The translations under genes and the position numbers were made by a program. From assembly GCF_000340215.1 (NCBI RefSeq), contig NW_006921541.1:1833527-1897526 (forward strand): 64,000 nt of DNA. The letters are read 5' to 3'. This document shows positions 4,719 through 28,487 of the stretch, one piece after another (position 1 is the first letter of the stretch; each line of letters starts with the position of its first letter). The notes beneath the pieces were generated by a model. That model ran no database searches. It was not told the origin of the DNA and saw nothing but the letters and a program-made list of their open reading frames with translations. Origin of the DNA: Pseudocercospora fijiensis CIRAD86. Its lineage: Eukaryota > Ascomycota > Dothideomycetes > Mycosphaerellales > Mycosphaerellaceae.

Positions 4719-4746
4719 CGTAGTGCTAGACCCCGCAGTAGTTCGG
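4719..4746. repeat. hAT left end: 8-bp target duplication plus terminal inverted repeat
   Basis: CGTAGTGC (4719-4726) is followed by TAGACCCCGCAGTAGTTCGG (4727-4746). The same 8 bp follow the right end at 21031-21038. The right end, read on the minus strand, begins with the same 20 bases except T for C at position 10, a RIP-type transition. An 8-bp duplication with short inverted ends is the hallmark of hAT transposition. Confidence 0.9.
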
Positions 4747-4867
4747 TTTCCGAACTACTAAACGTATATAGTTTGGTTTCTTAGCGGCGAACTAGCTCCC
4801 TAGTTCTAGTTTGGTTTTTTCGAACTATATAGATTCCTAGTTTGAACTAGAGACTATATTAGTTTTA

Positions 4868-5113
4868 CTATAAGGACACTCTTATTCGACTGCCGGCTAC
4901 GATTGCCGGCTATAATAGTAACTCTGTTACATTTACTACGCTCTTTTACCGTTACTAGGGCGTAGTTGCCGTTACTAGGGCGTAGTTTTGCTATAAGGAC
5001 ACTCTTATTCGACTGCCGGCTACGATTGCCGGCTATAATAGTTACTAGGTTGTATTTACTACGCTTTATTACCGTTACTAGGGCGTAGTTGCCGTTGCTA
5101 GGGCGTAGTTGCT
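4868..5113. repeat. Subterminal tandem repeat, two 123-bp units
   Basis: The units start at 4868 and 4991 with CTATAAGGACACTC. Each contains two GCCGGC motifs 13 bp apart, followed by GGGCGTAGTTGCCGTT-type short repeats. hAT transposases commonly bind short subterminal repeats, so this may be the left transposase-binding region. The second unit is extended by extra GGGCGTAGTT copies. Confidence 0.6.
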
Positions 5114-5209
5114 ATTGCCGGGGCGTAGTTACCGTAGTTACGAAAGCTAACCTATATAACGTTACGTAGGCGGTAACAATTAGGGCTTCGCGATATTCTT
5201 ACACTTTTA

Positions 5210-6850
5210 ACTTCTTCCTCTATACCTATACCGACAATAACTACTATACGCTACGCCCCCGCCCCTTTCCCTTATAATAGTAAGAGAGAAGCGCGCCGCG
5301 CGCTAAACAGAAGATAGAACTAAAGACCGCGAGTTTGTTTTGCCTAAGCGTCTAACTAAAAAGCGTAAGACTAAAGAGGAGTACTCTACGAAGAAGAATT
5401 CCGTACGAGACTACGAGAGAAAGGACAAGATAGATAAGGATAAAAGAGCTAAGGATAAGAGAAGAAAGGCGCGGAATAAGGCATTCTATCGATAGCTAGC
5501 GCCTATAGAAAAAAGTAAAGGTTAGAATAAGAAGACAACCTAAGAGAAGGCTAAGAGGAGGAAAGAATTGCGGCTAGTTTTCGAGCGTAAAGTTCTAGTA
5601 GCGTAAGTTAATCTAGCTAGCGGCCGTAGCTAGCAGCTATAGCCGGTAGCCGTAGCCGGCAGCTATAGCCGGCATATTTTTCTTTAATACGTTAACTAAT
5701 AGCATTTAGACCTATAGCCGCTACCTCTATCGATACGACCGATAGTAACGGAGATATTTAGATAGCCGAGAACAACAATACTAGAGTTTAGGATGCCGCG
5801 ATAGAGCTTAATACTACGAATAAAGGAACTAAAAAAAGCGAGGAGATACTATACGTCGATCTAGTAATAGGTGCAGTCTTAGGGCCTAACGCTATAGACG
5901 ATAAGCGCTAGGAGTAGATCGAGTATAGTCAAAGAGACGAGATACTAGTAAAGGGCTAAGGCATAAGTCCTATTAATCTAGAAAATCATAGTTAAAGCTA
6001 CTACGAAAAGCTAGTAAGGATTGGAATCGAGACTAGTCGTCTTTATATCCTCGATATAGAGTAGAAGTTTCTTCGTTAGTATTAGAGCGAAGCCTTTACG
6101 TCTATAAAGGCAAAGTAGCTTGCGATTAATGCGATCGGGGCTAGGTATCTAGGGACGGTAGAAGTATTACTATAGGAGGAAGGGGTATAGGTAATTATTC
6201 TATACTCGGCATACACAGCCGGCGTTCGTAGCCGGCAGATACTAATAGTTAAATAGAAAGCGTTTCTCGAAGGCAGAGTGCTACTACTATATAAAATCTT
6301 TACTAAGGCAGAGAGGGCTTATATCCGGAATCTAAGCTGCTAGTAGGATAGGTTAGCGTTAGAATTCTCTAAATCTCTATATAAGCCTCCGAAGGATTAC
6401 CTATTTTAGCGATACGGCTTTATCTCGACTACTCCGTAGGCACCCGAAGAAGCTCGAGCGCTCTTTAAGATCTTTACTAAGAAGCGGAAGGAGTTCGAGG
6501 ATTAGGATTAGTTAATAGAGCTATTAGTTAGTCTTAGGTTTCGTAGTTAGACTCGGCCTAAGTATTTGCTTGTCGAGTGTCTTATACCGAAAGAGGATAG
6601 ATTGAGACTAAAAACGAGCTTAGATTCGTTAGATATAGTAGCTCGGTTCCGTTAGTAGAAGAGAGCCGCCGTATAGAAGGCAAAATTTAGGTAGTTAGGG
6701 TAGCTAGGAAAGAAATTCTAGTAGTTAGGCTAGCTAGGGTAGCTAGGAAAAAAAATCTAGTAGTTAGGTAGCTAGGAAACAAAAAAAAAGATAGCTAGCT
6801 ATTTACTACCTAGCTATTCCTAACGATACGATGCTATAAAAGAAAGGGTG
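5210..6850 (+). pseudogene. Unidentified Lys-rich gene in the hAT element, with two motif-bearing introns
   Basis: The first part is strongly basic (KKRKTKEEY, KDKIDKDKRAKDKRRKARN), suggesting a nuclear or nucleic-acid-binding head. A clear intron at 5603-5709 starts GTAAGT, has an ACTAAT-type branch site and ends TTTAG. A second at 6191-6256 starts GTAATT and ends with ACTAATAG...AATAG. Both contain GCCGGC motifs. Between and after them the frame reads through RIP stops (LGPNAIDDKR, LVRIGIETSRLYILDIE, KIFTKAERAYIRNL). No known domain is recognised. It could be an accessory transposition protein or the N-terminal part of the transposase gene; I cannot decide between these. Confidence 0.45.
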
Positions 6851-6899
6851 TTTCCCTATAGCTACTAGTATACATCTACTACTCCTAAGTCCTTACCTT

Positions 6900-9800
6900 A
6901 CCGTACGAAACCTTAAAACATACCGACCGACATTGTATATATACTAGGCGCTATACTAGGAAGGGTAACAACAAGACGATAGTCGAAACAGTCTAGTATA
7001 CGAGCGAGATTGCGACAACGTCGAGAGGAGGTCGTATACTTACCTTCGAGCCTATCGAGTCCTAGACGACGATTAGGGCTAGATTTATCCTCTCCGAATC
7101 CTAGTAGTAGGAATTTATTATAGGGTACTACTACCTAGTCCTTACCTTTACGGAGTCTAAGTAGAAGGTTGTTCGGAGATATAAGAATATCGAGTATTAA
7201 CCCGGAAATCTTCGAAAAGGCTAGCTAGGCGTATCTTTAGAAACCCGAGTATATAGAGCAGTTTAATTAATAGGTCTATAAGATATAGTTCCCTTTATAC
7301 TTACGTTCGAAGGAGTATAAACTCCGGAAGTACTCGATGCGATAGGGGAGTAAGGAGCGAACGGACACATTCTAGAAGTTCTTTATAGAGGGGGCATTAT
7401 ACCGTTATACGACTTCTCGACTTAAAGGTTAACTAGTAATTGTCTGTAACTTCTACGGTTTAATCTTAAATACCGAAACTAGGGGATAGGAACTTATCGC
7501 CTACGAACTATCTCTATTCTAAACAGTATCGGGAATCTTAAGGAGAGAGGAGAGTTAATATAGATACAGCGTTCTAGAAAGAGGTACGTCTTCTAAAATG
7601 CCGGCTATAGCTGCCGGCTATAGCTGCCGGCTATAGCTGCCGGCTATAGATTCCGGCTACAGATTCCGGCTACTTGAATTAACCGTAGAGGTCTAGCTAA
7701 TTATTATAGGCTACGCTTAAGGAAGCTCTAGGATTAAAGGCTACCGATTTCTCCCCCGAAGACTTTAAGCAACTAGCAAACGAAATGCTAGCTACAAACG
7801 GTCTTCCGGAAGACTTCTACGAAAGGGAGTCTATATAGAAGATATACCTATATCTTATAAACTACCCTCCCCTATTTCTTAGCGCGACAACCTAGCGTAT
7901 TATATTCGAAAAGAACAAAGAGGCTGCGTTAGACGACATTCGGGAGATCCTCCGTAATACTCGCCGAGTAGCTATTGCTATCGATAGCTAGTTAAGCCGG
8001 ACTATAAGAGCCTCCTTCCTCTCGATTATACTATACTTTATTAATTCGGATTAGAAACTCTAGGAACTTATAATCGGATTCCCTGAAATTCTAGGTTCCT
8101 ATACTAGTAAGGATATAGCGAAGCTTGTCTATACGGTAATAGATAGGGTTAGCGTAATAACGAAACTAATCTCGATTACTACGGACAACGCTAGTAATAA
8201 TCGAACATTATATAAGGCGTTGTATATACAATTCACTCGCATATGTCTTTAAAATTACTAATTATATCGATAGGGTCGAGTACGTAGAGGAGATTATAAG
8301 GTCTATAATCTAGCTTAATCTTCCGAATATTAAGCTCGCTACGATTCCGGATACGTACGACAATACGTACGATAATAACGATAAAGAGGAGCCTATTAAT
8401 AGCCCTAGCTCTAACGAATCGGAGCCGACGTCGTTGCTAGTTACATCCCTATAGAAGTTTCCCTACCTCGCTTATATAGTTCAAATCGCGATCCGAGCCC
8501 TCTTTAAGACGCTTAAAATTGCACTATTAAACGACGACTAATAGAAGATCCTAGATAAGGATAAAGCAAAGTCGAAAGTCGAGAAACTTATTATAGTAAT
8601 AAGACGGGATAAGGCAGAGAGCCTCGCTCTCGTTTTATATAAGGTATAACTTTTGTCCGTAGCTAGCACCTATAGCCGGCAACCTAGTATAGTTCTAACT
8701 CTTTTTCTCTAGCTTCGTCGTCTAGTAATATATACGAACTCGAGCTTATAGAGATATAACCGATTCGAGGCTATTTAAAAGAACCTAATCGAGCGCCCTA
8801 AAACCGATGCCTAGAATATCGTATAGAATAAGCGATAGCAAAAGCGGCCTCCTTAGCGCCTACTCCGTTTTACCTAAGACGTTAAGACTCGGTTCGATTC
8901 GACTTTCTATATAGTTATAAGGGGATGTACTTTATATACCGCTTTCGAGATCTATTAGAGTTCCGAGGGTATTAAGTAGCTCGGCCTTACCGCCGCCGAA
9001 TAGCGCTAAGCAGAGTATCTCGTCGATATTAGTAAGTATTACGCGAAGGTTACTACTACGATTAGAAGAACCCGAGGACCGACGATCTACCTTGTCTTTG
9101 CGTACTATAACTAGCTCTTTAACGAGCTCGAGGAAACCGTAGCTAAGCTAGCTAAGAAGAGCGTTCCCTAGAAAGTAGCTATAACGAAAGCTATAGATAC
9201 CTCCTTAGTCCTATACTAAGTTGCATAAATATTATAGTGCTACCTTTAACTTGTTCGGGGATATCTATAGCGTTACGTACTTGCTTAACCCGGTAGAAAA
9301 GGATATATACTAGTAGAGGCCGGAATAGAAGGCGGACGAGGTATAGCCGAAGCATTACTAGACTATTCTAGAAAAGATATTCTACGAGCGTCGGAAAGAA
9401 ACTAGTCTAAATGCAGCTCCTATAAAGAAAAAGAAGGTTTAGAAGGCTCCGATATTATACCTGTTTCGTAGGTAGGAAGTAGAGGTAGAAGAGGAAGCAA
9501 CTACTAAAGTAAATAAAGAAGAGTTCGATCTCTATCGGCGCGCGAGTAAGTATAAACCCGTAGGCTCGGAAAGAGGGCTAATAATCTCTAGATCTTACCG
9601 GTCTTCTAGACGAATTCGGAGACGATATTCTCGCTATATAGCAGCGGTTAGAGCCTAAGTTTCTAATAATAGCGTCGGTCGCTCGGGACGTCCTCGCTAT
9701 CCCGAGCGTAGGTATAGGCTATAAGAGGTCTTTTAGTATCGCTCGTTACTAGGGCCGCTTTAATCGAACATGCTCGCCTACTACCTTCGAATCTATTATA

Positions 9801-10060
9801 GTATTCCGATACTATCTCCTCTACTAGAATCGCTAAGGTAGGTTACTAAAGATTATACTAAAGGAGTTGATCGAGGAATTAGAAAACCTTAAAATCGAAG
9901 AAACCTAGGAGCGCGAAGAGAATACGAAATTTAGTCTAAGCGAAACCCTAATTAGCAATAACGAAGAGGAGGAGGGCGGAGGTAGAAGGCGATACCGGGT
10001 CGAGAAGCGGAAACGTATATAGGCTTAGAGTAGCTTTAAGGAGACGAAGCGTTTACGTAT
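6900..10060 (+). pseudogene. hAT-family transposase, RIP-damaged
   Basis: The catalytic region reads AIAIDS, then FLSIILYFINSD, GFPEILGSYTSKDIAKLV and ISITTDNASNN. This is the RNase H-like hAT core with its characteristic DNASNN block (about 7970-8215). Near 9660-9780 the frame gives ARDVLAIPSVGIGYKRSFS and RYQGRF, matching the hAT C-terminal dimerisation region (DiLaIPas...eR.FS). Likely introns at 7584-7688 and 8644-8712 have GT...AG ends and contain GCCGGC motifs. Stops sit at Trp/Gln-type positions, as expected from RIP. I could not place the N-terminus or a BED finger. The enzyme would cut and paste the element, consistent with its 8-bp target duplication. Confidence 0.8.
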
Positions 10061-10378
10061 AAGGTAATATAGCCGGCGTATATAGCCGGCATATATCCGA
10101 AATGTGTTTCGAATTCCTAGGACCTAAACAGACTAGTTACTATAGTAACCGACCCCGCTTACCTACGGACTATTTCTAATTCTCTATTCGCTCTTCCTCT
10201 CCTTCTTCCCTTTCCCTATATTCTTAAAAACAAACATACCTTAAGGATTCGGCTCTTCGGGCCTTCCTAAGCCGGCTACCTTCCCTTCCTTAAGCTACTA
10301 TCCTTTATTCGAATCTAACGATAACCTAATAAGGCGGTTTAATAGAAGACTATTTGTTCTAGAAGGTAAGAAGTATTA

Positions 10379-11020
10379 ATGTCTCCTTACGATTATATAC
10401 TTATTAATTTTCTAGGTCCTACCGATATGCCCTCGTCGCCTAAACGCGCAGATAAATATCTTTAGAGGCTAAAGGGCAAGGGTAAAGCAAGCTAAGTATA
10501 GGGAGACCGTAGCGAGAACGAGATATCGGAAGAGTAAGGCTCTCCGTAGTATATACGAAGGAAGGGGGTTCCTCGGAAAACAGTACCGAAAAACAAGAAG
10601 GCTATAGGTAGATAGGAGAAGGCTAAAAAGAGTAGGCGGACGAAGACTATCGCGAAGAAAAGTTATCTTTCTATTAAAAGAAAGGGAATAAGGTAGGACT
10701 CGACGACAAAGAAGCGGCGCTTTAAACTAGGTACTATTGCCCTTCGCTAGATCCGGCTTTTCTAAAACAAAAGAGGGACCGAGCTTTTAATCCCTAAGAC
10801 TCCCTTCTAGCGACTCGTCCGAGAAATTATATTAGATTTTCGGTCTAGTATACGATTTACGGCTAAGGCGATTAGTACTCTTTAGGAAGCTACGGAGGCA
10901 TTTCTCGTAACCGAGCTTAAGCTTTTAAACCTCCTTACTATCTATACGAAGCGGGTTACTCTTTAAAATAAAGATATATAGCTTCTAGCTAAAATTCGGC
11001 GTCGGTTTATAGCGGATTAA
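10379..11020 (+). pseudogene. Histone H3-family gene with long tail, resembling centromeric H3 (CenH3/CENP-A type)
   Basis: The frame runs 213 codons from an ATG to a TAA at the position where H3 proteins end. Residues 1-117 form a long basic tail. The histone fold starts near residue 118: FKLGTIALR, stop, IRLF, stop, NKRGTELLIPKTPF, stop, RLVREI, then AISTL, stop, EATEAFLV, LLTIYTKRVTL, stop, NKDI, and a final KIRRRF. The stops after PF and TL fall exactly on Gln codons conserved in H3, as does the one after IRLF, so they are RIP products. The long tail, the LL at the loop before TKRVT, and the divergent core fit CenH3 better than canonical H3. The exact class is inference. It has no visible intron, unlike the other H3 gene in the element. 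If expressed before RIP it would enter nucleosomes, perhaps at the element or at centromeres. Confidence 0.8.
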
Positions 11021-11039
11021 TTGGAAATTGTATTTAGTC

Positions 11040-11305
11040 GTTAGATTAACCTAGGAGGAGGCCCATTTTCGCATCCTTTTACCGGCTATAGGTGCCGGCT
11101 ATATTTCTGATTTTATCTCCGCGCCGTCTCTAAATCTAAGGTACGAAGTAGAAACCTAGCGCTCTATATTTACCCGGCTATTATAGAGACGAGCTATATT
11201 TAGATTAGTTTCTTCGCATATCGCGACCTAGCGGGTAGTAAGCGAAAGGGCGATAGAACGTTTATAATACGTCTCTATTTAGACCTAAAACATAAAGGTC
11301 CTAAG
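11040..11305 (+). pseudogene. Unidentified hAT cargo gene, first part
   Basis: After a stretch with two GCCGGC motifs (about 11083-11104), perhaps an intron, the frame reads LALYIYPAIIETSYI, ISFFAYRDLAGSKRKGD and LYLDLKHKGPK up to the gypsy insertion. It resumes at 18055 with the frame intact once the insert and one CTAAG copy are removed. No domain is recognised. Confidence 0.4.
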
Positions 11306-12024
11306 TGTAAGGGTTAGTAGCTGAGCAGTAAGAATGTGTACGAAACTTTGAACTGAACTGAAGGGAGCACTAAATTAATATAGCTACTATCTGTATAAGA
11401 CGAACTACGAAGAAAGGAAGAAGGGTGCCTTAGAGGGAGAGCCCCTTCCTTAGTATTCCGCCCTACGGCCGTCTAGCGCGTCCGACGCGTAAGCGTAAGT
11501 ACGTATATCCTGCTTGTCCGCTGTCTCGTAGCGCCTTTGTCTCCTAGCTAACTAGCGTAGCGCGCGTACGCGAACTCGTTTAACCGCTCTTAAGCAAACA
11601 TGTTTCTCCTAGCTCTTCCCTACCTTCCGGTTCCTTCCTACTACTCGGATCTATTCTACGACTCTATATATCTCGCTTACTATCGTCCGTATGTGCGTAC
11701 GCGTAGTTTAGTGCAGTCCCGTCGTTCGTGTGTTAATGTATAACGTATTGTTCTGCTGTATACGGCCTCCGCGGGAGTCCCTAAGATGTTACGTTATACG
11801 GCTAAGTAGGCGACCTAGGCGTACTAGGCGTACTAGGCGTACCGGGCGTACTAGGCGTACTAGGCGTACTAGGCGTACTAGGCGTACTAGGCGACCTAGG
11901 CTAGCTAGGCGACCTGCTTCGCTAGGGGCCCCTGCTACTAAGGCAACTCAAATCCGATATTACTTTATAGTATAGCGGCTAGCTTATAGGACTTGTCGGT
12001 GCTTTCTAGGCAGCTACTATAACA
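11306..12024 (-). repeat. 3' LTR of the gypsy element (719 bp)
   Basis: It begins TGTAAGGG and ends ACTATAACA on the plus strand. It keeps several TpG sites that have become TpA in the other LTR. It contains a 9-bp array (GGCGTACTA, about nine copies, roughly 11817-11890), also present in the other LTR; the resulting Arg/Thr-rich frame is a by-product of the array. Confidence 0.9.
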
Positions 12025-12038
12025 GTAGCCCCCCCCTC
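12025..12038 (-). other. Polypurine tract of the gypsy element
   Basis: On the minus strand GAGGGGGGGCTAC lies directly before the 3' LTR, where plus-strand DNA synthesis would be primed. Confidence 0.6.
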
Positions 12039-12199
12039 GTTCTGCGCGGAGTTCCTACGACGCTAAAGGAGGTCCGTATACAATAGGTGCTAGTGTTCTT
12101 GTCCTAGTTCGGGTCGGAGACCTTAATCTAAATTCTATTCGTACGCTTCTCGGAGAAAATGTTCCGGGACAGCTCCTTCTATTGTCGTATAGTCGGTAT

Positions 12200-15100
12200 A
12201 GTCTCGTAGGAATTCCTCGATTGCTTCGCGGGCGAAGATAATGTAGCGTAGAGGTTCCTAGGTCGTGTCCTCGTCTAAGTACCCCTCCTATTGTACCTCT
12301 CCCTACGGCCCGGGAGGGTTAAGATTTCCGAAATTTGTATTACTAAAGCTCTATCCGATAATCGCCCGTACTATACCTAAGGCAGATTCCGGCTCGTCTT
12401 CGGCCTAATCGGTAGCCTCGGTAGCTTCCGGTATCGGCGGGATGTCTTCGGGGTCCGCGATTTCTCCGGCGGTTCTTAGGTTAACAACGTATTTGACCGG
12501 GTAAATGTTGAGATTTTCTAGGAGATCTAGTTCGTATGCGTATATGCCGATTTTCTTTACAATTCGGAAGGGTCCTAGATTTTTCTAGTCGAGCTTTTTC
12601 GAAGGTCGGTTAGTTCTAATATATCGTAAGTCGAGGTAGACGTAATCTCCGACTTAGTAATCTAGCGCGGCGCGTCTGCGCTAATTAGTATAGTGCTCGT
12701 ACACTTCTTAGGTATACCTTATCTCGTCCTAGAGCTCTTAGTAGGTCTAGGCTATTTAAAGAGCGAAGGCATTAGCGTCTCTTTCCGGATCGTTTACCGG
12801 GGGCTCTAGTTCGATCTCTATCGGTTCTATACCGGTTCGAGGGTGAAATCTAGTAGAGGCGTAGAACGGCGTAGTCTAAGTTGTAGCCGACTCCTAATTG
12901 TTAATAGCAAATTCAATAGAAGGCGTTAATCTTAGCTAGTCGTTTTAGTAGTAATTGTAGAAGCACCTAATAATTTGCTCGATCTGCGCGTTAGCCCGTT
13001 CGGTTTACCCGTCGGTCTACGGGTAGTAAGCCGTTAAAAGGCGCGCTTGAATTTTCAATCGTTCGTAGAGGCGCTTCTAGAAACGGGCAACGAAATTCGG
13101 GCCGCGATCAGATACAATTAATTCAGGTAGGCCTATATCTTTCTATACGTCCCGGTAGAAGACCTAAGCCGTATTCTTTGCGGTTAGGCTGCGGGCATTC
13201 AATACCTTCTTACGTTTCGTAAGGCGGCAAACTACGACTAGCATGTTTTGAAACTAGAGGCCGTTAAAATCGGATCCTTTCGGTAGGCCTATAATGAAAT
13301 CTATTAAAATGTATTACTATAGTCGTAGAGGGACTTTAAGAGGTTTTAGTAGCCCTTGCGGCTTACGCGTGTCTGCTTTCGCCCTACGGTATACTACGTA
13401 GTTCTTAACGAATCGGTCGACATCTCGGTATAGATTGGGCTAGTAGTACCACTTCCGGAGCTAAGACAATATCTTAGCTCGACCGGGATATACTATTCCG
13501 AGAGGGTTATAAGCGGAACGCATAATCTAGTCGCGTAAATCTTCGAAGTCCGGGACGTAGAGGGCATTTCTGAATATTGTACGGGGTGCTCGCGGTAGAG
13601 TTCTACGGAGCTCGTACTCCGAGAGAGAAACGTTCTCGTACAACCGCTCCTCGTTCTATAAAGCTTAAATTAGACCTTTAGTAAAAGCGTCTTCGGCGTA
13701 TACTGTCGTAAGCTGCTGTTCGAGCTAGGTAGGTTCGAGGAGGTCCTATGCTTCCTCTTCGCTTTCCTAGTCGCTATCTAAGCTTTCTAAACTCGTATCT
13801 TCGTCGTCCGAGCTATCGTCGTCTCTAAGAAAGGCGGGAGCGGCTATTAGTACAAAGGATGCTACGAGAGGCTCTAGGCCGGTAAAGTCGTCTCCGAGGA
13901 GCTCGTATAGTTCCTAGCTAAGGTTGTACTCCTTAAGGATAGACTATTCTTTACGCTACGGACCTCGATCTAAAGGCGAGTCTCCGTTGCGCCTCGTAAG
14001 TACGTCGGCCTATAAGTTTGCTTTACCGGGCGTATACTGAATAACGAAGTTAAACCGGGAAAGAAACTCACTCTAGCGTACCTGCCTACGGCTAAGGATT
14101 TTGCTCTTAAGAAAGTAGATGAGGTTCTTATAATCCGAGCTAACCTAGATCGGTAACTTAGAACCTTCGAGTTCCGGACGCTATTCTTCGAAAGCCTTAA
14201 CGATTACGAGGAGCTCCTTGTCGTAGATGTCGTAATTGCATTCCGCGGAGGATATTTTCTTAGAGAGGTAGGCTACGGGCAGCTACGTATCTTCCGGGGT
14301 CGTTCGTTAAAGGAGAACGGCGCTAGTTATACCGTCGGAAGCATCGGTTTCTAGGCGCGTTTCTTTATCGAAGTCGAAGTACTATAGGATCGGTGCGGTC
14401 GTAAAACTTTGCCGTAACTAGTCGAAGGCTTCTTAATAGGCCGGTAACTATTCAAATTTAACGTCTTTCCGCGTAAGTGCCGTAAGTAGACGGGCGATTC
14501 CGCTAAAATTCCGTATAAATCTCCGGTAGAAGTTAGCAAAACCGAGGAAGCCCTAGACTTCTTTTACGTTTCGTAGCACTCCCTAGTTTAGAACGGCTTC
14601 GATCTTGCCGGGATCTATTCAAATACCTTCTAAAGAGACAATAAGGCCGAGGAATTTCACCTCTTACTTATAGAATTCGCACTTATCGATATCGATATAC
14701 AGTCCGGCTTCTACGAGCTTCTTAAGTACCTTTTCGATATATTCGTAGTATTCCGCTTTCGTTTTGCTATAAATTAGGATATCGTCTATATACGCCGAGA
14801 CGAAGGCGTCTAGGAATTCTTTAAGCGTATCGTTGATATATAATTAGAACGTGCTAGGTCCGTTACAGAGTCCGAACGGCAAGACTAGGTATTCAAAAAG
14901 GCCGTAACGGGTTCGGAAGGCTATTAACTATTCGTCTCCCTCGGCAATACGGATTGCGTTAAAGGCGGCGATTACGTCGAGCTTAGTAAACTAGCGAGCC
15001 TTCGAAAGGCGTTCGAGCGTTTCGTTTACGAGAGGGATTAGGTAGCGGTTCTTTTTCGTTAACGCGTTAAGGCCCCGGTAGTCTACGTAGAAACGGAGAC

Positions 15101-17290
15101 CTCCGCCGGGTTTCCGGGCAAATATAACTAGTGCGGCTGCTTCGGAGGAACTAGGGCGGATAAAGCCCTTTTATAGGTTGTCTTCTAGGTATTTCTTTAG
15201 TACGAGGAGCTTATCTCGAGACATCGAGTAGAGAGGGCCGTACGGCGGCGGCTTGCCGTCGATTAGCTTAATTTTGTAGTCGACACCTAGCCGGTACGGT
15301 AGTAGAATGTCGGCGTTCTTCTTCGAAAACTAGTAGAGTCGGTGCTAATGCTCCTTCGGTAGTTTCGTTCTTAGATCCGTTAGTTCTTCGTCGAACTTTC
15401 GGATAGCCTTCTCGATATCCTATATTATTATAGCGAAGATCTAAGTGCGTTTATCGCGGGCAAGACGCGAGAAGGCAGCCGCGCTAATAGCGAATACGGT
15501 ACGATCTCGGGGAGTATCGGAGGTAGAACTAGATTCGTTGAAGTAGTACTTAGCGTAATACTTGCTTATAAAGGATAGAGATTCGGAGGCCTAGTCGATA
15601 ACCGGGTTATGCTTTTTAAGCTAAGGAAGACTAAGAATAACGGGGTAAGTCTTCGGGAGTTTCGTAAGGAAAAACATAATGTGTTCGGTATACGGGCCGA
15701 TAGTAATAGATAAGTAGCAGATCTGGGTTACCTTGCCGGCGGCCGCGGTCGTACCGTTAAACATTTCCAACTCCCGAGCGTACGTAAGGTCTTAGAACGT
15801 TAAGCCGAGCTCTCTCGTATAGTCGTAATCTATAAACGAGTAGCCGGTTACGCCGTTATTAATAAGAGCTACAGTTTTTAATAATTTCTTTTAGTTTCCT
15901 ATTAACGTTTCTACTACGAAAGGCTAGTAGACCAACTCTTTCTCTATAGCCGAGCTAGAGAAAGGGAAGGTAGCAGTAGATACTCTTAGTTTTAGAACGA
16001 ATAAACCTTGTAAGCGACTATATATAAGGTTCAAGCTTTTCCCTAGCCGCTCGGAGTAGCGCTAGCCGGTAAAGGCGTATCTAGAGTCGTAACATTCGCG
16101 GCGGCGACTCGCTATATCGTTAGCGTATTTAGCCGGCCGACGAGAGACGGGTAGAGGCGAGCAATGTATCCTTTTACTCTATAGTAGATGCATTCTCCTA
16201 CCGTACGGCGACGCTGCTTCTCTTCTTCCGAAAGCTTGCTATTCACTAGGGGCGCGCGTAGACGGGCGCTAAGCGAGGCAGCGCTTAAATCTATCGGATC
16301 GGCGGCAGGCTAGGCGCCTAGCGGTATTAGGGCTATAGCCGGAGCTAGTGCTAAGGCCGGCGTCTAAGCTATCTATAACTTCGACGGTAGCGTAGCGAAC
16401 GGCGACGTAAAGCGACCGGTATTCGTACGGGCGCCTCCGCGGTTAGCGATGATTTTCGCGAAGTTTCGAGTCGTATTGTCGATACGCGTAAGCAAGGCGT
16501 ACAGTTCGGTAATGTTTAGATTCTCCGTATCCTTATCGCGGACTTATAGCATTATTTCTTCGCTAAGGCCGCGCACTAAGATCCACTTAGCGACGTCCGG
16601 GGGGTATTCGGCGTACCTAATCTCGTATTAGAAGGCGGTATAGTACTCTTAGTAGGTCTTGTTTGCTTGCTTAAGTTTGTCTAAGTTTAGGCGCGCAGTT
16701 TGCTTACGGTCGGGGTCGCCGAAACTAGCGTCGAGGGCCTTCTAGATAGTAGCCGTTATAGTTGTTTCTACATTTTCTAAGAGGCTGCGGTAGGAATCGA
16801 GGGCGGAGCTACCGAGTAGAGAAAACATAAATCCGGTCTTTGAAGCTTTAGTCGGATAGTAGTCGGCGTTAGCGAGAAAGCGGATCTTAACCTATATCTT
16901 GAATTCTTCGTATACTTTACGCTTACCGGTAAAGCGTTCGGGGTCGCTTAGCTTCTTACTCTTATTCGAAGTAGGTATAAATAGGTAAGAAGCGGGTACC
17001 GCGGCGCCTAGGCGAGCAGAGGCGAGCTACGACTAGAGGCGGCCTACCTCGTCTTCTTTTTCCGCGATAGAAGCATTCGCGTCGCTAAGAGCCGTACTAA
17101 GGCTAGTACGGGAGACCGAGAGGAAACGAGTAGCATCTTTATAAGCCTTAAGCAGGTTAACGAGCAGTTCCGGGTCGGTAGCGTAGGCGTGATCTAGCTG
17201 TTCGCGCGTAGCGGGGATTTCATTCTATACTAAGCTTAAAAAATCGGGTACGTCGTTAGGTCTTGTGTTTTGAATCCATTCGTCGGGCGT
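12200..17290 (-). pseudogene. Gag-Pol of the gypsy element
   Basis: Minus-strand translation gives, in order: Gag with LSDPERFTGKRKVYEEF near 16.9 kb; a CCHC zinc knuckle near 16.17-16.20 kb, two of its ligands changed to Tyr; a retropepsin-like ALINNGVTGYSFID near 15.85 kb; reverse transcriptase with [20 protein letters not shown] and the YIDD catalytic motif at about 14779-14790; the connection [17 protein letters not shown] and ETDA of RNase H near 14.35-14.55 kb; integrase with GLPELIVSDRGPNFVARF and the YHPQTDGQTER block, now with RIP changes, near 12.97-13.14 kb; and a chromodomain (EGYLDEDTT, stop, EPL) at about 12205-12299. In the chromodomain both stops sit at conserved Trp codons. 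There are no indels in these parts, only point changes. Confidence 0.9.
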
Positions 17291-17330
17291 ATCTATCTTA
17301 ATAGAGGCGTTTTTTTAAGGCAGTTCGTAA

Positions 17331-18049
17331 TATAAGGGTTAGTAGCTAAGCAGTGAGAATGTATACGAAACTTTAAACTAAACTAAAGGGAGTACTGAAT
17401 TAATATAGCTGCTATCTATATAAGACGAACTGCGAAGAAAGGAAGAAGGGTGCCTTAGAGAGAGAGCCCCTTCCTTAGTATTCCGCCCTGCGGCCGTCTA
17501 GCGCGTCCGACGCGTAAGCGCAAGTACGTATATCCTGCTTATCCGCTGTCTCGTAGCGCCTTTATCTCCTAGCTAACTAGCGTAGCGCGCGTACGCGAAC
17601 TCGTTTAACCGCTCTTAAGCAAATATGTTTCTCCTAGCTCTTCCCTGCCTTCCGGTTCCTTCCTACTACTCGGATCTGTCCTACGACTCTGTATATCTCG
17701 CTTGCTGTCGTCCGTATATACGTGCGCGTAGTTTAGTGCAGTCCCGTCGTTCGTATATTAATATGTAACGTATTGTTCTACTATATGCGGCCTCTGCGGG
17801 AGTCCCTAAGATGTTACGTTATGCGGCTAAGTGGGCGACCTAGGCGTACTAGGCGTACTAGGCGTACCGGGCGTACTAGGCGTACTAGGCGTACTAGGCG
17901 TACTAGGCGTACTAGGCGACCTAGGCTAGCTAGGCGACCTGCTTCGCTAGGGGCCCCTGCTGCTAAGGCAACTCAAATCCGATATTACTTTATGGCATAG
18001 CGGCTAGCTTGTAGGACTTGTCGGTGCTTTCTAGGCAGCCACTATAACA
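17331..18049 (-). repeat. 5' LTR of the gypsy element (719 bp)
   Basis: Same length as the other LTR. Its left end is TATAAGGG, where TG has become TA by RIP. The sequence just inside it on the minus strand (TTACGAACTGCC) should hold the primer binding site, but I cannot match it to a tRNA. Confidence 0.9.
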
Positions 18050-18054
18050 CTAAG

Positions 18055-18600
18055 GAGCCCTAGCATCCTAACTATAAGGAGATTCTTTAGTATTAGTACT
18101 TTAATCCTCTATACTGCGAGGTAGATAGCAAGCCTACGAGAGAGAAACTTTAACGAGAAATTCTCTATAATACGTAGCGCTATTATATAGCTATAGATGC
18201 GCACTAAGTCCGGCAACTCGAAGAAGAATTAAGATAGCGTATTAGCGACCGAGGAAGAGATCGATAGTATACTAGTAGAGTCGAGGTCTTATAAGCGAAG
18301 TATAAGATAATATAGGCTCTTAGTCGTATAGAGTAACGTACTATATAAATAACTAGGCGTACTACTCTTATTTACTTACGACCTATATCCTAGGATACTC
18401 TTCTCGTACTTTTTATACTCTTTTCTAATATCTTACCTATAAGCGCTCCGCGACAACCGAGTAAATATAAGCTATAGGGTTTCCGCTCGGTACCTTAGCC
18501 TCCGAGATAGGGCGGAGTTGAATTTAGAGCGATAGCCGGCACTCGTAGCCGGTATATAGAGACGGTAGTAGGCCTTTTCCTACTAAATAACTAGCTTGTT
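18055..18600 (+). pseudogene. Unidentified hAT cargo gene, second part
   Basis: Continues from 11305: EP, stop, HPNYKEIL, then NPLYCEVDSKPTREKL, REILYNT, RYYIAIDAH and an Arg/Glu-rich helical stretch. RIP stops fall at Gln-type positions. Two GCCGGC-type motifs at about 18534-18556 may mark another intron or the 3' end. No domain is recognised; the Arg/Glu/Gln-rich part may form a coiled coil. Confidence 0.4.
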
Positions 18601-19058
18601 TAGTATAGCCTACCTAATATTTCTTATATTTACTAGTAATAGGCCTAGGTTACTTATAAGATTACTATAGCTAGTAAAGGCATTACTAAAGAATATCTAT
18701 ACTATAGTAAGATACTATTATTACGCCGGCTATTTATTAAAAGGAGGCTTTCGCCTATTACTATGCCGGCTATATATGCCGGCTATATTTCAAAGTCTCC
18801 CGTACCTGCCTTTTTTAGCCGTACCTACCTTTTTTAGCCGTACCTGCCTTCTTTCCTTACTCTAACGTTACTATAATATAGGCTTGCGCGAAGCTTACTC
18901 TATTGCCTAGCGATACCGCGATACTACCGCTATATTCAACCTTCGCATCGATACCTATACCTCTACGCTCTATATCTACTACCTCCGTAATACCCTCGCT
19001 CCGCGCGCGCCTTCGTATACCTTCGTAACGCACTTTTTTCCTCAATTCGACGACTTTT

Positions 19059-19734
19059 ATAATAGCGAGTCTACTTAACTAAGTTACGACGCCTCGCAAG
19101 AAGGGACCTAGTACTTCTGCGGGTCGCAATAAGACCGGAAATAGTAGAACGAGTATAGTATATTAACGTAAGAGGGCTGCTGCTACTACCGCTAGCTCCG
19201 GTACTAGAAAGGGCGTCGCGAGTAAGGCTCCGCGTAAGACAACGGCGGGTAAGGCTCTACGTAAGACGACAACTAGCGCTTCTACTACTAGTAGCAATCG
19301 TACGAAGCGTCGATAGCGCCTAGGAAGTAAGTCCTATTTATAGCCGGCAGCGTAGCCGGTAGCGTAGCCGGTAGCGTAGCCGGCATTCTTACTGTCTTTT
19401 TACTAATCCTTCTTTAGCCGTAGCCCTCCGTAAGATTCGGTAGTATTAGAAGAGTTCTTAGCTCCTAATCCGTAAAACTCCTTTCTAACGACTTATTCGC
19501 GAAATTGCCTAGGATTATAGAACGGACCTTCGCTTCTAAGCCTCCGCGATAGGCGCCCTTTAAGAGGCTATAGAAGCCTACCTAGTTCGTATCTTCGAAT
19601 GTATATTTCTCTTCTACCTCTTTTCGGACTATACTAATACTATTTTAGCGGTTAACCTTATAGCTATCTACGCGAAGCGTATAACGATTATAGACAAGGA
19701 TTTTAAAGCACTCGATCAGATTCTAAAAGGCTAG
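19059..19734 (+). pseudogene. Histone H3 gene carried by the hAT element
   Basis: Three exons (to 19326, 19418-19600, 19649-19734) join in frame. Intron 1 (19327-19417) is GTAAGT...TACTAAT...TTTAG and holds four GCCGGC/T motifs. Intron 2 (19601-19648) is GTATAT...ACTAAT...TTTTAG. The joined protein is about 178 residues. The fold reads GTVALRKIR, KTPF, stop, RLIREIA, stop, DYRTDLRF, stop, ASAIGAL, stop, EAIEAYLVRIFE, then NLIAIYAKRITI. All four stops from PF onward fall on Gln codons conserved in H3. The tail has TRKGVASKAPRKTTAGKALRK, with Lys at the exact spacing of H3 K9, K14, K18, K23 and K27; S10 is Gly and S28 is Thr. The start is probably ATA at 19059 or 19062, an ATG hit by RIP. The tail is some 45 residues longer than in normal H3. 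Past the TAG a coding-like frame runs on, so the stop may not be natural. Confidence 0.88.
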
Positions 19735-20059
19735 AATGTCTATATTCGAGACGGTACTAGGTAGGATAGATATTCTAGTAGAAAGGATGTTCGTAGTATT
19801 ATCTATAAGCTTTTCTATATACGAAATAAGCCGCTATTATACGGCGCTGCATACCGCGCTCTAAATACTCTCTAAGCATATATATATAGTATAGTATGCT
19901 TTATTAGCCGTACGGAATAGAAGTCTCCTAAAATCCCGTTAGTACTAAGGAGTAAAAAGGCCGGCTACGCTGCCGGCTACGCTGCCGGCTACGCTACTAG
20001 CTACGCTGCTAGGTTTTTTAAAGAACTAAAAGAAGATAGACATTCCGGTTGATTTATAT

Positions 20060-20598
20060 TAGTTTAGATTTTTATAAAAAGAAAACAGGGAAAAATAAGG
20101 AAGGTTGAAGAGCCTAATAGTTATAGTTATAGGCACTATCCCTGTTTTCTAGAGCATATTATATACCTGCCTTCGCAACTCTACCTAATACTCCCTCTAA
20201 ATATCCTTATACTCTACCTACTAAAAATTTAACTAGGTACCTAGACCTGTAGCTGCCTCTATATCTTTTACTATCTTCTACAGGTTGAAGGCCTCTTCTA
20301 TAGCAGCCTCTACCTCCTTATACAATACGAAGTTACTACCTGCCCTACCCTTTATATCTCCTAAATAACTAAGAGTTCTAAGGAACGAACTAGCATTCGG
20401 CCTTAGTATAGCGAGTAACTAGTAGAACGTTCTATAGAGCTGCCTTATAGCTCTTTTATATACTATACCGATACCGAGGGAGGAGCTATCCTAGTACTTA
20501 ATATTGTCGAATAGTTCGGTAGGAAAGTGTATAAACTTCTTAAGGAGGAAGACTTCTAGGGAAATCGATAAGTTCTGCCTAGATCTAGATAAAGACAT
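20060..20598 (-). pseudogene. Unidentified minus-strand gene at the right end of the hAT element
   Basis: From ATG at 20598 the frame reads MSLSRSRQNLSISLEVFLL, HFPTELFDNIKY, stop, DSSSLGIGIVYKRAIRQLY, LRTLSYLGDIKGRAGS and EVEAAIEEAFNL, with RIP stops at Gln/Trp-like positions. It would be 150-180 residues, mostly helical by appearance. No family is recognised. It is the only cargo gene on the minus strand and converges on the H3 gene. Confidence 0.4.
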
Positions 20599-21010
20599 TC
20601 TACTAAGCAGTTAGGGAATTGAACTATAAACGAAAGGATGAAATTTATACCTAAGGAGTATAGTTTCCGAACTAAACTATAATGCCTTATATATATGTGT
20701 GTATGCTTTTAATTAGTTAGTACCCTTAGCTAATTGTCTATAGATTTGAGGTTATATAAGTATCTTTATATAACTACGTAGCCTAAGTAGGATTCGAAAA
20801 TTCTATAAGTACTAAGGACTAAAAATGCCGGCTACGCTGCCGGCTATACTGCTAAGTCTTATAAAGGGCTTGCTTGAAGCTACGTATACATTCGTACACT
20901 TCTTAAAAACCGATAAATTATATAGTTCGAACTAGCTACTTATATAGTTGCTTAGCAAACCAACCTAAACTAAACTAGAGTTTCGGCTTAGCAAACTAAA
21001 CTAAACCAAC

Positions 21011-21038
21011 CCGAACTACTACGGGGTCTACGTAGTGC
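21011..21038. repeat. hAT right end: terminal inverted repeat plus 8-bp target duplication
   Basis: CCGAACTACTACGGGGTCTA (21011-21030) is the reverse complement of the left end with one transition. It is followed by CGTAGTGC (21031-21038), identical to 4719-4726. Confidence 0.9.
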
Positions 21039-25683: not shown

Positions 25684-28487
25684 TCAAAATAGCAACTTCA
25701 GCTCATAACCGGTGGAGCTGACATTCTCGATGGTCGGCAAGTCGCCATCGCACTGGATATCGGTGGGTCCGGCGTCCCACTCTCGCTTTGGTTTTACTGG
25801 GGTGTCTGGCTGGACCTCGCAGAATTCGGCCGTCATGTCCTGTCCTTCTGGGAGTTCGCGGATGCATTCGTCGTCGAAAAGTACGGTTAGGCCATCCCTG
25901 TTGATGCGGTACGTTCGCAATACCTGCGTAGGTTCGATGCCGCATTTCATGGCCAAGGTGTTGTTGAACTCTTTCAGTGACCGCTTCATCAAGTAGATGG
26001 CGCGGTAGTAGTTGTCACATGTCTTTCCAGCCACGCGAGGCTGGATGAAAAAGCATGCGACTGGCTTGACCGGTCTTTCGGGAGGAGGTCGGTAGCTGTG
26101 ATCCACACCGACTGCCTCAATCCAGCCAGCAGATGTGCCGTCGTCTGAGGTTCTAGTGTGGACCTTCATAGGCTGATTGTCTGGCGGGCTTTGCAATTGC
26201 TCCGAAATCGTGGGCTGAATGTCCATCGTCGCGGTCTGGGGATTATTGCGCCATTCACTCGAATTCACTCGTGAAGGGCCATTGATCGGAGTCGGCTGCT
26301 GCATCGTGGAGTCTTTTCTGCTGCCGATCAACGAATTGTTGCTTGGAGTGGGCGAGACGACGGAGGATCCCTTTTCATCGCTGTTTCTCTCCCAACTCGT
26401 GTCTGCAGAATCGGTCCTGACCAGCTCAATTTCTCCCGAGAGCTTGACCGGTTGAAGATCTGGATCATCACCATCTTCACCGCGCAGATAGAGCACACTT
26501 GCAGGTCTGGTAGAAGTGAACATATCTTGCAGTGTCATGAGTTTCATGTGCAAATCTTCTTCGGCGCTGCCTCTGCCGCCGTTCGAGGTCCCTGAAGTCA
26601 TTGACCAGGTCCTTCTGTGTTTCGGAACCTTTCCAGGTCGGTTGTCAAGGCCTTTCGCGACGGAACCTGCGCGTTTTCGCTTGCCAAGGTCGCGCATTCC
26701 AGATTCGATCTGCGCAATCTGTTGGTTGAGTTTGTCAATGGTCTTCTTGACGTGGGCCACGTCGTTGGACAATTTTCGTTCGGCGCCATGATCTCTGAAA
26801 AGCTTGACTTTGCAGTAGCAGACTTCCGGACCGGTAGGCGTCGTCGACTCCTCGATGGCTTCCGTCTTCGCGCAAAGTCGAACGGGAATGCCCTTGACGC
26901 CTTTTGAATGGCTGAAATCGGTCGACAAGAAGTTGAATCGAACAGAAATCGGGCACTCAGATGCGCCCGCGGCTGGACTCCACGTCACGCAGAAGCCATC
27001 GAAAGAGGAGCATTCGAGGTCGACTCTTGGTTTCGTGGGATCTTCTGCACCTCCCATGTGACCGGAGTCGACATATTCGACGGCTTGCAGACGGCCACCT
27101 CTTTGATGCGCCTCATTCGTTCCGCGGCCTTCTTTCCACAGCTGCCAGCAAGCTGCAGGCTTCTGCCGTTGCTGCTCGTCTTCAAAGGATACGCGTACAA
27201 AGGTGCGGTATTTTGTGGCTGGTGCAGTCGGTTGAGCATGGGTATCGACGACGTTAAGTGTGTACGCCTGGCCCTTATTCAGGTATGTCACGGGAATTTC
27301 GTCTGCATGCTTGATCATCGCCGTCGGCGCGTTCAGCGTGACATGGTATCGAAATCTGTTCAAAATTAGCACCGGAGGTTCGTCAACAGTGGCTGTGAAC
27401 GATACGTACTTCTCGGCGGACGGATGTAGCGGAGGTGGCCGCATCGTGTTTGGAAGGTTTGGAGGGCGAAATAGAAGGTCCGGCGATTGGTGCTGGGGTG
27501 GCAAGCCCATGTCCAGACCCATGTCGTCGATGGGCGATTCTCCGACCGGGCCCTCGATCGACTCAAAGGACGGTTGATGGGTAAAGTGCGCTGGAGGAAA
27601 GGCTTGTTGTTGATGCATGTGGAAGGGATTGACATTTTGGAATTGGTGAGGTTGCATGTGTTGCGGGAGATGTGCGTGGAAGGCATCGAAGGGTGCGGTC
27701 TGCTGGCCAGCATGCAAGGCACCTTCCGAGGTGGGCATGGACAGAGGGGTGCCCAGTCCCATGGCGAAGGTGGGTGTATGAAGGTCGCCGGCTTGGTTGT
27801 GATAGAGAGGATTGGAGGCACCGGGCGTGGGCGTGTAGTAGGCCGACATGGGGTTGGCGAACATGTTGAAGTTGGGATTGTTTGGATCCATTAGTGATGG
27901 TGTGAGGCCTGAAGTTCCAAAATTCCACGGCTCGTTGGAAGGGCGTGGAGTGGGGTCTGCATCGTTGATATCGTGCGGCTGAGTGTCGAGAGAGCTGGGC
28001 AGCGATGTCAGTGCTCGTTCCAAACACGCAGTTGCCTGCGAAGCAAATGGGGTTGATCTGTGCTGGGGATATTATCAGAACAGACAGGGAAAGGCCTACC
28101 GCGGCTTCGGCGGGACATCGAGGGCTTCTGCGAGCGGCTGTGCCTGAGCGTGCGCCGGCGCCGGTGCACTGGAGGCTGGAGAGGTGGTGGCGGCGGACAG
28201 TTCGGGGAAGTTGGCCTTGAAGTCGCGATACAGCTCGTCGCTGGGCTTTTGCGATGTTCTCCTGTGCGCACAGAGATTATTGTCAGCAGGCGCAGGCGCA
28301 GGCGTGGGGATTGATGGCGAGGGCGATGGCGATAGCGATAGAGTTCCAGCGTTGCGCAACGCGGAGCCTGGAGCCTGGAAGCCGATCGTGTGGCTGTCCC
28401 GTCCAGCGCTCTCAGAACAGCGCTGCGCTGGCTGAAGGGCGGACATTGCGTCTCGTCGCGACATTCTGCTTACCGATTTCGAAACAT
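25684..28487 (-). CDS. Grainyhead/CP2-family transcription factor
   Basis: Exons 28487-28474 (14 nt, MFRN plus part of a codon), 28261-28100 and 28057-25684 total 2,550 nt, giving 849 residues in one frame. Intron 1 (212 nt) is GTAAGC...CACAG. Intron 2 is only 42 nt (GTAGGC...CACAG); the alternative acceptor at 28036 breaks the frame. The long last-exon frame alone would begin on TTG, so it is not the start. The N-terminus reads MFRNRRTSQKPSDELYRDFK. A Gln/His/Pro-rich region follows. The CP2 DNA-binding domain lies at about residues 275-485 (KYVSFTATVDEPPVLILNRF onward), then a coiled coil near 488-515, a basic GKRKRAG signal near 517, and a C-terminal ubiquitin-like dimerisation region at about 720-810. 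In Neurospora a family member (csp-2) controls conidial separation; a similar role here is inference. The gene is intact, without RIP changes, between two RIP-damaged blocks. Confidence 0.92.

Follow-up and report, generated by a model that had tools for sequence, protein, structure and literature searches.

The arrangement of histone H3 genes carried within a hAT-type DNA transposon is already known, since Dhillon et al. 2019 (PMC6710886) and Manning et al. 2013 (PMC3538342) describe such elements. According to the available text of the former, Pseudocercospora fijiensis contains a hAT family with 784 H3-like sequences in 471 elements, 99 of them complete, whose full-length members measure 9.5–9.9 kb and have 20-bp terminal inverted repeats (TIRs), an 8-bp target site duplication (TSD) and two H3 genes each; the family is also reported there from Cercospora and Sphaerulina. 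The same account gives a DUF659 domain for the family, describes the dimerisation domain as not identifiable, and infers capture of a transcript or a retrocopy from 16 residues inserted into the second H3. Here we analyse one copy of such an element in a 64,000-nucleotide stretch of the P. fijiensis CIRAD86 genome (contig NW_006921541.1, positions 1,833,527 to 1,897,526 of the forward strand; hereafter the window), where it occupies positions 4727–21030 and holds two H3-family genes, designated H3-A and H3-B.

The H3L hAT of Pyrenophora tritici-repentis, as described in the available part of Manning et al. 2013 (PMC3538342), likewise holds an H3-like gene between inverted ends, and its authors ask whether chromatin is altered. 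In contrast to the P. fijiensis family, this element is 5.6 kb long, with a full-length transposase, a central open reading frame and a single H3L gene, and most of its copies are intact. The hATs of the two species were found to have no DNA similarity and were regarded as products of independent events (Dhillon et al. 2019, PMC6710886, available text). Plant Pack-MULEs and other transduplication elements, as treated in the accessible parts of both papers (PMC6710886, PMC3538342), are likewise DNA transposons with host-gene cargo, but Pack-MULEs carry fragments of various genes, whereas the P. fijiensis element carries one gene family twice. Given these published elements, the supposition of the initial annotation of the window that no DNA transposon with H3 cargo had been described has to be withdrawn.

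As far as the available text of Dhillon et al. 2019 (PMC6710886) allows comparison, the window element agrees with the published P. fijiensis family in length (9,555 bp after subtraction of a nested insert), TIRs, TSD, presence of two H3 genes, damage by repeat-induced point mutation (RIP) and 48 extra nucleotides in the second H3; the host H3 gene lies on contig 6 here and on scaffold 6 there. It differs by a nested long terminal repeat (LTR) retrotransposon; in addition, the 16-residue insert is read here as an intron, and a weak dimerisation match and residue-level constraint are reported. The element is probably a copy of this known family that was killed by RIP and later split by a Ty3-type insertion, both of its H3 genes having been kept as histones before RIP. 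Three results go beyond the published account: the predicted introns of H3-B, two mutually distant H3 genes together with the weak dimerisation match, and transversions that avoid H3-conserved residues. In the open-licence literature, the accessible parts of PMC6710886 and PMC3538342 report neither introns in, nor selection on, the H3 genes of these elements. It would matter if such genes proved to be under selection and not dead cargo: if transposons keep histones of their own, a counter-player to their silencing by chromatin has been overlooked, and the intact relatives in P. tritici-repentis, going by the part of their description at hand, make the idea of a selected histone testable.

Element ends, genomic copies and RIP

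The 20-bp ends of the element (TAGACCCCG...) form an inverted repeat with 19 of 20 bases matching, and the perfect 8-bp duplication CGTAGTGC lies on either side. Throughout the 64-kb window this was the top-ranked inverted pair with an exact 8-bp repeat outside it; the runner-up (17/20) sits in a simple repeat inside the hAT. An 8-bp target duplication with short inverted ends agrees with membership of the hAT superfamily. The initial annotation had presented 4727–21030 as one hAT-type element holding two H3-family genes between its inverted ends. The ends, the 8-bp duplication and the PF00125 matches of both genes agree with this description, but the extent of 16.3 kb includes the nested retrotransposon and does not represent the size of the hAT itself. 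The hAT is GC-poor (0.41).

The 73.9-Mb assembly (30 contigs) was searched, and 19 elements were fetched through their histone matches, a choice from which the frequency of H3-less members cannot be read. Both H3 regions are present in all 19 as well as in the window, so other copies do share both genes, and 10 of the 19 are continuous across the LTR insertion site, with no insert there; the LTR element gave no match above 150 bits in the 19 copies. Both outer ends were seen in five of the 20 elements, four of which have perfect 8-bp duplications, all different.

The remaining one of these five (L020) has unequal 8-bp flanks (CTAGTAAC vs CAAGTTAC) and is perhaps a recombinant. Two fetched copies contain short elements, apparently non-autonomous relatives, which have similar inverted ends and are each flanked by a separate perfect 8-bp duplication: in L017 a 383-bp element is inserted where H3-B ends (8401–8783 of the reverse complement; CCTCGATC), and in L019 one of 372 bp just upstream of H3-A (5635–6006 of the reverse complement; GTGCTACC). 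Subfamilies tend to group on particular contigs: with 40 candidates scored per search and the query counted among the matches, six of the eight almost complete matches to the L026 type (86% or more) lie on contig 13, and nine of the 11 to the L016 type (89% or more) lie on contigs 23, 20 and 17.

Comparison of the window with copy L014 reveals nine transversions and 267 transitions, 201 of which are of RIP type (111 C/T before A and 90 G/A after T). The H3 frames are interrupted exclusively by TAA or TAG codons, of which 26 H3-B copies have 266 and 20 H3-A copies 211; 14 further H3-B stretches had been chosen by similarity to two subfamilies. Both observations bear out the RIP damage assumed at the outset, and by this pattern of changes the window copy appears to have been killed by RIP. 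In the histone search, 148 of the best 150 of 772 candidates contain in-frame stops; the two places without stops are the host H3 gene on contig 6 and a sequence taken by us for the host CenH3.

Two different H3 genes

H3-A and H3-B both match host H3 in tblastn searches, and both frames score as histone far above the curated PF00125 cut-off of 26.4 bits (H3-A, 10628–10999 on the plus strand, E=5.4e-25, 88.5 bits; H3-B, 19420–19731 on the plus strand, E=4.5e-23, 82.3 bits), which identifies them as core histone H3 genes and confirms the original assignment. The best PDB matches for the H3-A core are H3. In a set of 5.8 billion proteins, H3-A has 39 matches, all H3-like and at most 56% identical, none of them a close relative. 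The best 120 of the 1,212 H3-B matches are all H3-like and, among those listed, at most 64% identical, again without a close relative, the top one being a partial tandem H3 of 248 residues.

H3-A is intron-free through its core and ends with a natural stop codon (11018–11020). For H3-B, two introns are predicted. Intron 1 starts with GTAAGT and ends with AG in all 26 copies, which differ in intron length (69 to 116 nt) without respect to the frame; intron 2 has a GT start, a branch-like TACTAAT site and an AG end. When both are removed, the core has the spacing of H3, and the second intron of host H3 lies one codon away from one of them. The 16-residue insertion described for the second H3 of the family in the available text of PMC6710886 fits the 48-nt intron. 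Because of its two predicted introns H3-B does not appear to be a retrocopy, and its origin as a processed host H3 retrocopy was rejected. We infer that two H3 genes of different kinds were present in the element, a long-tailed H3-A with an intronless core and an H3-B predicted to be spliced.

The core residues shared with host H3 number 52 of 91 for H3-A and 62 of 89 for H3-B, and 47 of 90 are common to the two genes; they appear to be about as distant from each other as from host H3. In a phylogenetic tree each gene forms a well-supported clade of its own and the two clades are not sisters, the deeper forks being weakly settled. Because of these separate clades and the 47 of 90 shared residues, we see no sign that one H3 was derived from the other inside the element.

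Loop 1 is longer in the putative host CenH3 than in H3-A and H3-B, where its spacing is that of H3; on this length a CenH3 (CENP-A type) identity was rejected for both, and the early suggestion that the element interferes with centromeres finds no support. Nor does H3-B lend any to the proposed resistance to H3K9-based silencing: in an alignment made by eye, R-K is kept at the K9-like place of its tail in 25 of 26 copies, with R-R in L032, and the H3-A tail aligns too poorly for this place to be read. A tyrosine replaces a histidine in the core of both genes, which was not used as evidence because RIP would give the same change.

Probable constraint on the H3 genes and alternative explanations

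Selection was assessed by counting transversions, because RIP makes transitions only. For the residue test, sites were sorted by agreement between host H3 and host CenH3, a sorting that is blind to the element. At codon positions 1 and 2 of H3-B (26 copies), transversions occur in 19 of 128 columns at conserved residues vs 26 of 50 at the others (p 9e-7); the corresponding counts for H3-A (20 copies) are 2 of 128 vs 9 of 50 (p 2e-4). At third positions the same test is weaker (p 0.05 for H3-B, 0.54 for H3-A). The result still holds when loop 1 is left out (p 0.0014 for H3-B, 0.0012 for H3-A), was matched by none of 88 circular shifts for either gene, and survives permutation of residues (p 5e-5 for H3-B, the floor of 20,000 shuffles; 5e-4 for H3-A). 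The direction was the same when only two or three copies, taken from different subfamilies, were compared (p 0.0005 to 0.08), and also with sorting by identity to the host, which is partly circular and was not relied on. With moderate confidence, the avoidance of H3-conserved residues by transversions suggests that both H3s were kept as histones while the subfamilies diverged.

A number of observations weigh against such constraint. By plain transversion-only ratios of nonsynonymous to synonymous change (N/S), no purifying selection was found on the H3 genes, while three transposase pieces in their own frames give 0.34–0.51 (p 0.026–0.095): N/S is 0.87 (p 0.50) for all of H3-A (core 0.91, tail 0.81), 0.86 (p 0.35) for the pooled H3-B core, 0.73 (p 0.48) for the H3-B core against the L025 subfamily and 1.02 for the H3-B tail, with no constraint on the tails of either gene by this test. 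The only low H3 value, 0.40 (p 0.019) for the H3-B core against the L016 subfamily, is one of several tests. Per site, transversions are more frequent in the core and tail of H3-B than in its introns, whichever codon position is considered, and constraint by itself does not account for this excess. Columns are not fully independent, given the common ancestry of the copies and possible recombination among them. The 5' site of H3-B intron 2 is intact in only two of 26 copies, a loss that RIP would also give, and splicing is predicted. No intact copy of the element was seen. The phase of transversions, compared pairwise between copies over 300-bp windows, was too weak a test to be used.

The N/S values near 1 for H3-A and pooled H3-B, together with the intron-free core of H3-A, would suit the published account, as given in the available part of Dhillon et al. 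2019 (PMC6710886): a host H3 transcript or retrocopy was captured by passive transduplication and amplified as useless cargo, its second copy differing by an insertion, and RIP made pseudogenes of all copies. The two predicted introns of H3-B, one of them a codon from the host's second intron, argue against this account, as do the separate clades of the two genes with their limited identity to each other and to host H3, and the transversions that avoid H3-conserved residues; we consider it rather unlikely. Conservation of these residues might instead stem from gene conversion with host H3, or recent repeated capture from it, and not from selection in the element. The H3-A core, where transversions are scarce whatever the codon position (20 of 303 columns), is in line with that idea, but both genes are far from host H3, the element is GC-poor, and the H3-A excess at non-conserved residues sits in codon positions 1 and 2, not in third positions, all of which makes it very improbable. 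That the locus is not one hAT, but two unrelated elements or host H3 genes lying between repeats by chance, could be argued from 16.3 kb being long for a hAT; this is refuted by the copies collinear through the LTR site, and the presence of both H3 regions in all fetched elements and four sites with perfect but different 8-bp duplications speak against it too, leaving it a negligible probability.

The αN-α1 link and loop 1 are DNA-facing parts of H3, and centromeric H3 evolves adaptively in its DNA-contact loops in some animals. H3-B has a transversion hot spot in just these parts (two blocks within window positions 19453–19536), with 31 of 51 bases affected vs 40 of 219 in the rest of the core (p 5e-9). 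Adaptive evolution of H3-B in these loops, which would be compatible with retention of both genes as histones, is nevertheless distinctly unlikely: third positions of the hot spot are raised too (9 of 17, no difference from positions 1 and 2; p 0.55), and the pattern could equally come from a mutation hot spot, from replacement of several bases at once or from recombination among subfamilies. Because of the raised third positions, positive selection is not claimed. Retention of both H3s until RIP struck a known hAT family remains the explanation that we favour. A bolder form of it, in which the hAT lineage kept two H3 genes as working parts of its life cycle and made a nucleosome component of its own, one of the two changing fast in the DNA-contact loops, is a tentative possibility. 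Under the favoured explanation the most likely mechanism is that H3 proteins made by the active element would enter nucleosomes or tie up H3 chaperones, and could favour expression or integration of the element or dilute silencing marks; RIP would later break transposase and histones together.

Transposase remains, nested retrotransposon and feature coordinates

The initial annotation had credited the element with a transposase containing a DNASNN block and a dimerisation region. The DNASNN block is present (Table 1), and the dimerisation region is represented by a weak PF05699 match, 18.9 bits (E=0.0013) against a cut-off of 21.4 in the window copy and 16.2–16.9 bits in three other copies. 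Alignment of this region by hhalign with an intact hAT of the same genome was also weak (probability 6, E=0.006), and its transversion N/S is 0.51 (p 0.095); the PF05699 match is suggestive of a hAT dimerisation region. The DNASNN and TRFDSTF blocks are taken by us to be hAT transposase motifs. Transversion N/S is 0.34 (p 0.026) for 7770–8106 in the frame of the DNASNN piece and 0.41 (p 0.040) for 8650–9250 in that of the central piece, neither piece having a hAT Pfam match of its own. Upstream, 7127–7726 gives 0.46 (p 0.011) in frame coord%3=2, the lowest among the three frames, and the probable N-terminal piece has no Pfam match. In six-frame Pfam scans of the hAT outside the LTR insert, no family besides histone exceeded its cut-off; DUF659 had no match in the frames of the element, and no Rfam family was found in it. 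Other hAT frames of more than 800 residues in the genome, L010 and L012, have the dimerisation domain above cut-off; the L012 frame is without stops and that of L010 has one TAG within the match.

The nested insert of about 6.7 kb lies between H3-A and H3-B. Its LTRs measure 720 bp and are 94.2% identical, and its minus strand has matches to reverse transcriptase, RNase H and an integrase zinc-binding domain, with a gag match just below cut-off. The LTR pair, these protein domains and the 5-bp duplication identify it as a Ty3-type LTR retrotransposon.

Table 1. Positions of features of the hAT element and its nested insert in the window
Feature	Position	Strand	Basis
Left 8-bp target duplication of hAT	4719..4726		flank repeat comparison
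Left TIR of hAT	4727..4746	+	19/20 with right end
Probable coding piece of transposase N-terminus, frame coord%3=2	7082..7480	+	transversion N/S
Transposase piece with DNASNN block (8184–8201)	7689..8201	+	motif and transversion N/S
Central transposase piece, frame coord%3=1, TRFDSTF at 8887	8302..9250	+	motif and transversion N/S
C-terminal hAT dimerisation region (suggestive)	9567..9920	+	weak PF05699 match
H3-A, divergent H3 gene, ~197 codons, long tail, no intron across core	10427..11020	+	Pfam and copy alignment
Left 5-bp target duplication of LTR element, CTAAG	11301..11305		read from flanks
Nested Ty3-type LTR retrotransposon, later insertion, not part of hAT	11306..18049	-	LTR pair and protein domains
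Right 5-bp target duplication of LTR element, CTAAG	18050..18054		read from flanks
H3-B exon 1 (tail), start inferred	19062..19326	+	copy alignment
H3-B intron 1 (predicted, GTAAGT...TTTAG, 91 nt)	19327..19417	+	splice signals in copies
H3-B exon 2 (histone core)	19418..19600	+	Pfam and copy alignment
H3-B intron 2 (predicted, 48 nt)	19601..19648	+	splice signals, H3 spacing
H3-B exon 3 with stop	19649..19734	+	copy alignment
Right TIR of hAT	21011..21030	-	19/20 with left end
Right 8-bp target duplication of hAT	21031..21038		flank repeat comparison

Short repeats of the GTAGCCGGC type are scattered across the hAT in both orientations (4890–5037, 5623–5672, 7599–7672, 10067–10096, 18762–18788, 19341–19385, 19960–20009 and 20820–20846), one array lying inside H3-B intron 1; they are perhaps transposase binding sites. 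Outside the element, the window contains an intact gene for a Grainyhead/CP2-type transcription factor (25684–28023, minus strand), which shares 93% identity with a Grainyhead-like protein from P. fuligena.

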